A stretch of 37,794 nt of DNA. It comes from Spiroplasma sp. (lineage in GTDB: Bacteria; Bacillota_I; Bacilli_A; Mycoplasmatales; Mycoplasmataceae). The stretch spans positions 1 through 37,794 of the forward strand of contig JALAGN010000064.1 in assembly GCA_022712415.1 (NCBI GenBank). The letters run 5' to 3'. How positions within the stretch are numbered: the first letter of the stretch is position 1; each line of letters starts with the position of its first letter. Shown here piece after piece: positions 23,490 through 26,319 of the stretch. Below the pieces are notes generated by a model. It did not search any database. It was not told the DNA's origin and saw only the letters and a list, made by a program, of their open reading frames with translations. Made by a program: the position numbers and the translations under genes.

Positions 23490-24551
23490 ATGAAAAAACT
23501 ACTTTCAATTTTAGGGTCATTCGGAATTATCGCATCTAGTGCTTCAAGTCTAGTTTCGTGTTCTGTACCGACACAAAGTTTAAAAACAAAAATAATGGGC
23601 AAAGATGCAACAGATGATGTAATCAACAATTTCAGATTACCATCAATGGCGGGTGATTCTGATAATCCGTTGAACTCAATCGGAATGGGATTGTTAAATG
23701 TTCTTGCCGCTGGCGGAGATAAAGTTGAAGATGCATCTGATAAAGCAATGTTAGGTGATGCTGAAAAACTTTCAATCAATAATAATTTATACAACGACGA
23801 TCAAAAAATTTACACTGGAGATTGAAATGCGTTTAAAGAAGCTTATGTTTCTTCTGGTAACTCACGCTTTACATCTGTTGATTATGAAAAGGTAGCAATG
23901 GATGGTGACTCGGCAGAGGATAATCTTTACGGTCAACAATTAGGAATCGTGAAGGATGCTACAGAACCATCACTAACACTAACATCGGATGTTAAAAACT
24001 TAACCACTTTAATTAGTAATGCCGGTGAAGGTGAATTAAAAACTAATATTGAAAAATTTAAAGGTAAACATTTACCTTATGGTAGTTATTTAGGAAAACC
24101 AACAGAAAAACCAACATTCACCGTCAAAGGTTATACTGATGATGAAGCAAACAAGTTTAAAGCATTAGCAATATCAGAAAAAGATTACAAAGAAAAGGGT
24201 TTAACTATTAATGCCAGATTAAATCTAGATGACGAAACTGTGATCGAATATGCCAACACATCACAAGAAATCTACCAACCAGTTGATGGTCTAGAAGTTA
24301 AATTTGAATTCCAAACTGAAAAAGGTAAATCATTTACCCTTGATGTAACAGGAATTACTTGTTACTTAATGTATGGTTTGGGAATTATGACAGATGGATT
24401 TACTGCAAGCGATAGTATGAAAGCCTTCTTAGTTGTTTTACCAAGTGCTTATACATTTACACATGACGTTGCTAATCCAACAACTAACGTGTTTGAAAGC
24501 TTAGTTACAAATCAAGAAAAATTGAAAATTGATATTACAGAAAATAAATAA
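23490..24551 (+). CDS. Putative lipoprotein, function unknown
   Basis: Mollicute-style lipoprotein signal MKKLLSILGSFGIIASSASSLVSC; 353 aa in code 4. Confidence 0.85.
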
Positions 24552-24553
24552 TC

Positions 24554-24584
24554 GAAGAAACCCAATTATGGGTTTCTTTTTTGA
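24554..24584 (+). terminator. Rho-independent terminator
   Basis: aagaaaccca-atta-tgggtttctttttt. Confidence 0.85.
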
Positions 24585-24610
24585 TAAAATAAGAAAAGGA
24601 CGGTGAGGAC

Positions 24611-25069
24611 ATGCTGAATTATTTTGTAAAGTTCGAAAACAATATTTATAAAGTTGTGGACGGAAACACTAACAGAACAGTTGCAACTTTTATTAATGAA
24701 GTTGACGCTCACATTTTTTTAAGGAATATGATAACTTCTGCGCTTGGAGGCGCAATTGTTCCCAACCCACAAAGTGGTCAGCAAATGTATCCACCATACA
24801 ACAATCAAGCAATGCAACAGCCAATGCAAAATTTTAATCAAAACCAAAACTCAGTTATTAATAATAATTTTGATGACTCATCAATTCAATTAGATGGATC
24901 AAACTTTATGCAGGACAAATTAGGGACATTAATTAAACTACCACCCGAAGTTTATGCTGGAAGTTTTGACGATTCGTCATTAGGAGAAACAAGCGGATAT
25001 CAAATCAAGGATATTGAAGAGATTGAGTTCTTAGAAAATAACGGTAAAAACATCGGAAAAAAGTATTAG
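24611..25069 (+). CDS. N/Q-rich hypothetical protein, possibly the 5' part of a frameshifted gene
   Basis: 152 aa ORF with good upstream gaggac; ends ...KNIGKKY*, overlapping the next open frame at an A_AAA_AAG site. Confidence 0.75.
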   Translation: MLNYFVKFENNIYKVVDGNTNRTVATFINEVDAHIFLRNMITSALGGAIVPNPQSGQQMYPPYNNQAMQQPMQNFNQNQNSVINNNFDDSSIQLDGSNFMQDKLGTLIKLPPEVYAGSFDDSSLGETSGYQIKDIEEIEFLENNGKNIGKKY

Positions 25070-25659
25070 ACAGCACTTATTACGATAAGGTAGCACAACG
25101 AAAAAAACGTGAAGACGAAGAAATGGAACGTAGTATTCGAAATCAATTTACATTTAAAGAAGATGATAAGTATTTTGATATGTCAGATCCATCATTGGGT
25201 GCTGTCTATAACGAACGTGATTATGCCAAAAACCTAGATAACGATTCACAAAATGCTTACAATAGTTATCAAAATCCACAGCAACAAACAAACAACAATA
25301 ATGAGGTTGTTCATAATAAAGCCAACGTGCAAGTTACCAACCACTTTGAAGATGACATTCCGGAGATTGAAGAGATTCAGGATTTTGAAAGCGCCATGCC
25401 AAGTGAAGTTGCGACACCCAGCAATTCAAATCCAACCGATTCTTATGCTGCTAACCTCGTCAATAGTAATATTGAAGTTAAAAAAAATGAAGACATCATT
25501 GACTTGGGACCATTAGCAGAGCAAGATGATATTTTTTCAACGCCACGTCGTGATGCTGAAATGGAAGATGACTTCCAAATTTTTGGTGAATACAAAAATA
25601 AAAAAGAAGAACGCAAAGCGTTTAAACGAGAATTAAAAAAAGTTAAACGAGGACGTTAG
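25063..25659 (+). CDS. N/Q-rich acidic hypothetical protein, possible -1 frameshift continuation (or independent ORF from ATG 25123)
   Basis: The -1 frame is open from just after the TAA 5' of 25063 through VLDSTYYDKVAQRKKREDEEMERSIRNQF... to TAG 25657-25659; no clear Shine-Dalgarno before ATG 25123. Confidence 0.65.
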   Translation, partial: VLDSTYYDKVAQRKKREDEEMERSIRNQFTFKEDDKYFDMSDPSLGAVYNERDYAKNLDNDSQNAYNSYQNPQQQTNNNNEVVHNKANVQVTNHFEDDIPEIEEIQDFESAMPSEVATPSNSNPTDSYAANLVNSNIEVKKNEDIIDLGPLAEQDDIFSTPRRDAEMEDDFQIFGEYKNKKEERKAFKRELKKVKRGR

Positions 25660-25662
25660 GTG

Positions 25663-26304
25663 ATGAACGGAATTCTTAATAGTTGATTGGATTTCTTAAC
25701 ACAACTTAATTTGCGTGAAACGGTCGAAACATTGCTAGACCAAGTTTACCGTGAAGAAAATGTTTTGCCACCGCGAGCTGAAGTTTTAAGTTTGTTCAAA
25801 TTAATTAATCCGCAAGATGTCCGAGTGGTCATCATTGGACAAGATCCCTATCACACACCAGGAGTCGCAAACGGAATTGCGTTCGCGACTAAAAATAGTA
25901 AAACACCACCAAGCTTAAAAAATATTTTTAAAGAACTACAAAATGATCTTGGGATTGTGCGAACTGATAATGATTTATCTGATTGAGTACGTCAAGGAGT
26001 TTTACTAATTAATTCAGTTTTTACTGTCAGAGCAGGCGAACCAAATTCGCACCAACATGTTGGATGACAAGCAATCGTCCAAAAAATTTTAAGCGGGCTA
26101 AACAAAATGAATAGTGAAATTATTTATTGTTTATGGGGAAACAACGCTAAATACTTATATAATAATTTAGAAGTAAGAAATAGAAATTGTATAATCTCAG
26201 CCCATCCTTCGCCGTTTAGTTACGCAAGAGGATTTGCCGGAAGTACGCCATTTAGTAAAATTAACAAGCTGTTAAGAATGATAGGTGGTCAAGAGATTAA
26301 ATGA
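25663..26304 (+). CDS. ung: Uracil-DNA glycosylase
   Basis: VVIIGQDPYHTPGVANGIAFA, LLINSVFTVRAGEPNSH, HPSPFSY; 213 aa in code 4. Confidence 0.95.
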
Positions 26305-26319
26305 TAGTGGGGTATTAGT

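Follow-up and report, generated by a model that had tools for sequence, protein, structure and literature searches.

The window analysed here, a stretch of 37,794 nucleotides from Spiroplasma sp. that makes up an entire contig, C39, in a 797-kb assembly (81 contigs, 85.6% complete), carries two consecutive open reading frames. Sequence comparison identifies them as two parts of what was ancestrally a single gene, with a lipoprotein gene (itself downstream of dnaB) on one side and ung on the other. The change of frame between them maps to a short run of A's (Table 1). What had been proposed, on a sequence-only reading, to be a programmed -1 ribosomal frameshift at the heptamer A_AAA_AAG is very probably the outcome of an ordinary single-base change in this run, which may be a genuine mutation or an error of assembly; the evidence gives no support to programmed frameshifting, which is unlikely.

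Table 1. Positions in the window of the interrupted gene, its junction and its immediate neighbours
Feature	Positions	Strand	Remarks
Upstream neighbour, predicted lipoprotein-like ORF (MKKLLSILGSFGIIASSASSLVSC...)	23490..24551	+	same neighbour type in relatives
ORF1, 5' part of interrupted gene	24611..25069	+	152 aa; profile match 24857-25123
ORF1 layout			small N-terminal beta-beta-beta-alpha domain, N/Q-rich linker, first acidic repeat with DDxSLGE...Y motif
Sole interval with both frames open	25048..25069	+	frame change must fall inside
A6 run / in-frame A_AAA_AAG, frame-change site	25057..25063	+	net one base short relative to the single ORF of relatives
ORF2 frame, 3' part of gene	25063..25659	+	second repeat, IDLGPxxExDxxFSTPRxDAE motif, basic C-terminal tail
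Downstream neighbour, ung (uracil-DNA glycosylase)	25660..26307	+	

At its 3' end, ORF1 reads GGA AAA AAG TAT TAG, with the six A's at 25057-25062, the heptamer in the frame of ORF1 and the TAG stop at 25067-25069; on re-reading the sequence, the coordinates, heptamer and stop first given for this junction were all borne out. The last stop upstream in the frame of ORF2 is a TAA at 25045-25047, beyond which this frame is open. Both frames are thus open together over only 22 nt, so any change of frame must lie there, and the longest run within this interval is A6. Elsewhere in the window, a small SRP RNA (RF00169; 6830-6917), located directly 5' of deaminase and dnaX-like genes, and a ribosomal protein L10 leader (RF00557; 34058-34213) scored over their gathering thresholds.

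Searches for the gene covered as many as 242 genomes at the level of the order and 60 at that of the family. Besides one marginal match in another family, they located it in 22 other genomes, all belonging to the window's own family (genera g11, g6, and g8). We examined the locus in all 22 genomes, reading the frames with TGA as Trp (code 4), and extracted the gene automatically from 20. In every one of these 20 relatives, which belong to three other genera, the gene is a single open frame of ~356-880 aa; it is preceded by a lipoprotein-like gene and followed by ung, except in one genome where its downstream neighbour is the gene that elsewhere comes next after ung. The sequence-only reading had itself named a single uninterrupted ORF in relatives as evidence against recoding, and this is, in substance, what all of them carry. 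The code used is one that a further observation fits: a tRNA with a UCA anticodon (labelled SeC by ARAGORN; L116 1501-1576, G000:C63:32377-32449) lies directly 5' of tRNA-Trp(CCA).

For 19 of the 20 relatives, tblastn placed the N-terminal part of the single ORF on window frame 2 (start 24566-24614) and the C-terminal part of the same ORF on window frame 1 (end by 25656). The DDxSLGE...Y motif of window ORF1 was present on the single ORF in 19/20, and the IDLGPxxExDxxFSTPRxDAE motif of window ORF2 was C-terminal in every relative aligned. Several relatives carry two copies of the SLGE-type repeat per ORF, and the window copies likewise number two and flank the split, one on each side. A global protein alignment misplaced the repeats across the low-complexity linker and was excluded from placement of the breakpoint. 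The split is present in the window genome only. Closer relatives were sought by comparing the C-terminal alignment with genome contigs, which returned a single unrelated low-identity match.

A reading of the locus as two independent genes, or as a gene stably divided in two, where translation of ORF2 begins at its first ATG (25123), would fit the open frames retained by both halves and the Shine-Dalgarno (SD) motif of ORF1, yet we consider it extremely unlikely. No SD-like motif was found before ATG 25123, whereas the ORF1 start and most neighbours have one, as had been remarked before. With a codon score for which the remaining genes of the window served as training set, applied to 60-mers, we found that the 60 nt from A6 to this ATG (25063-25122) score 0.575 bits per codon, which is the 48th percentile of true coding 60-mers and above all off-frame 60-mers sampled, with the other two frames below -1.1. 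The 20 codons ahead of the ATG thus score as coding and the ATG has no SD, which argues that ORF2 is not an independent gene starting there, and the two halves form one ORF in all relatives compared. On these three grounds (SD absence, coding score, relatives) the two-gene candidate was rejected, and ATG 25123 appears to be internal to the ancestral gene. The ORF2 frame is coding right up to A6, and the break is either recent, erroneous, or bridged in expression.

Bridging by a lineage-specific programmed -1 shift, with 152-aa and ~349-aa products made from one mRNA, would draw on several features of the site. Only one codon separates an exact slippery heptamer of the X_XXY_YYZ type, set in the 0 frame, from the stop; directly past the heptamer the downstream frame is unbroken and coding; no other coding frameshift was detected in the sampled part of the assembly; and tRNA-Lys(UUU) is the only tRNA-Lys found (two UUU and no CUU genes among the 30 tRNA matches listed, in an assembly 85.6% complete from which a CUU gene may be missing). 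No other heptamer of this type shifts as readily as A_AAA_AAG in E. coli, a species in which AAA and AAG are decoded by a single tRNA-Lys (PMC5009743). We nevertheless regard a programmed shift as highly improbable. None of the 20 relatives needs one to encode the protein, no heptamer is conserved at the corresponding place in any of them, and the upstream product would be missing the region of highest conservation. An SD-like stimulator 9-14 nt upstream of the heptamer, of the kind on which dnaX and roughly half of the IS elements rely (PMC5009743), was not found in 25037-25056 (AATAACGGTAAAAACATCGG). Folding downstream was no better than chance, with z = -0.23, +0.53, and -0.18 relative to shuffled sequence for secondary structure without pseudoknots; the weak hairpin previously pointed out just past the heptamer can be drawn on paper but does not exceed chance in strength (z -0.23 and +0.53 in two downstream windows). 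The earlier suggestion divides: a single protein of about 349 aa with a change of frame at A6 holds good, while the programmed -1 shift itself is not supported, there being neither a conserved heptamer nor stimulators. Best in agreement with the data is an alternative that the sequence-only reading had itself listed, loss of one base in the A-run, whether real or erroneous. A -1 shift newly arisen in this lineage from deletion in the A-run, producing short and long forms of the protein without dedicated stimulators, also seems to us very unlikely. For the locus between dnaB and ung, we found nothing in the literature on frameshifting in Spiroplasma and Mollicutes.

How much weight the heptamer itself deserves depends on its background frequency. 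In-frame A_AAA_AAG is uncommon in this genome without being rare: the window's 36 kb of coding sequence holds one, and long ORFs on other contigs hold six over 151 kb. In-frame A_AAA_AAA is ~14 times commoner (99 versus 7), so the heptamer can readily arise when such a tract is shortened. In E. coli, A_AAA_AAG is found in 68 genes (PMC9307594), and its presence by itself therefore means little. Chance does not account for the heptamer lying at the frame break, a position equally to be expected of an indel in the A-run and of a slippery site.

Uninterrupted relatives, a frame change at a run, and two halves that are intact and coding up to the break are the marks of a homopolymer indel, and all of them are seen here; we infer that the split is due to such an event. 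A net loss of one base in the A-run at 25057-25062 (or, less likely, within a few bases of it) would have occurred in this genome only and would make the upstream half run into the TAG two codons on. The loss would be either a recent DNA polymerase slippage mutation or a local assembly or sequencing error, and A_AAA_AAG would be a by-product of the shortening of the run, not a conserved recoding signal. Indel frequency is known to climb ~2.5-fold per repeat base, with tolerated indels sitting between conserved motifs (PMC3812077), and the A6 break likewise falls between conserved motifs. Frameshifts in A/T tracts are present in AT-rich symbiont genomes (PMC3017870). Two points stand against the indel: homopolymer indels are otherwise rare in the assembly, and it would be somewhat coincidental, in a way that mildly favours recoding, for a lone indel to create, right ahead of a stop, the A-rich heptamer that is the most slippery in bacteria.

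The quality of the assembly was assessed by comparing 358 kb of the window genome with proteins from ~760 kb of one relative. Over ~220 aligned genes (194 kb, with 755 A/T runs of six or more), the A6 split was the sole coding frame jump, the two others that were flagged being tRNA clusters; the same pipeline recovered 129 of 169 simulated one-base deletions (~76%). As no other coding frameshift was seen in these genes, systematic homopolymer error is unlikely, and a general problem of this kind was ruled out for the sampled part of the assembly. A single local error at A6 is possible. In our judgement, which is not a measurement, the odds are about even between a recent deletion that is real and an error of the assembly.

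Even with a real loss, some full-length protein could be made through ordinary slippage of ribosomes at a low level on A_AAA_AAG, adventitiously and not as a programme; spontaneous frameshift rates are 1e-4 to 1e-5 (PMC9307594). With only tRNA-Lys(UUU) found, partial ribosomal bypass at the heptamer is possible. More broadly, slippage of the ribosome or of RNA polymerase on a true A6 might partly restore the full-length protein without any dedicated signal, a sub-case of the indel explanation whose probability overlaps with that given above and which we consider conceivable but rather doubtful. Such bypass has been documented where the frameshifting indel falls in a homonucleotide repeat 3-8 bases long and lies, as here, between conserved motifs (PMC3812077), and transcriptional slippage rescues such genes in Blochmannia and Buchnera (PMC3017870). 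It presupposes, however, that the indel is real, and six A's are short for transcriptional slippage, the Blochmannia study stressing tracts of 9 or more (PMC3017870).

The main use of this analysis is that it keeps a false recoding event off the record. The comparison also reveals a single uncharacterised protein, conserved beside dnaB and ung across several genera of the family (window 24611-25659, loci L038-L059) and diverging fast. Its layout comprises a beta-beta-beta-alpha N-terminal domain, an N/Q-rich linker, at least one acidic SLGE repeat, the IDLGP..FSTPR motif, and a lysine-rich tail. Neither Pfam nor NCBIfam holds a family for ORF1, ORF2, or the intact relatives. The N-terminal domain gave a confident structure model in which it is predicted to adopt the small beta-beta-beta-alpha fold, and its comparison with solved structures, by sequence and by fold, yielded nothing at a meaningful E-value. 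At the neighbouring gene of one relative (G080, L055 3837-4504), ung has an open frame no earlier than 3941, giving 138 aa from the first ATG versus ~222 aa elsewhere; this ung may be truncated or frame-broken. Should the indel in the window gene be real, the locus would offer a small natural test of how well a recently arisen frameshift at A_AAA_AAG is tolerated when tRNA-Lys(UUU) is the sole tRNA-Lys found.

The -1 frameshifting of E. coli dnaX and IS elements (PMC5009743) resembles the window site in the heptamer, in the nearby stop, and in that only tRNA-Lys(UUU) was found here. Unlike those systems, the window site has no SD stimulator at 9-14 nt, no stem-loop above chance, and no conservation, and the relatives of the window gene encode the long product without a shift. 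With the dnaB/ung-adjacent protein of the same family of TGA=Trp bacteria, the window gene shares its neighbours, the N-terminal domain, the SLGE repeat, and IDLGP..FSTPR, and differs in being split in two where the relatives have a single ORF. In the homopolymer-tract genes of Blochmannia and Buchnera (PMC3017870), as here, a one-base change in an A-tract splits a coding sequence that is whole in relatives; the tracts in those symbionts are longer and some of the frameshifts are common to several species, whereas in the window the tract is an A6 and the split belongs to one genome.
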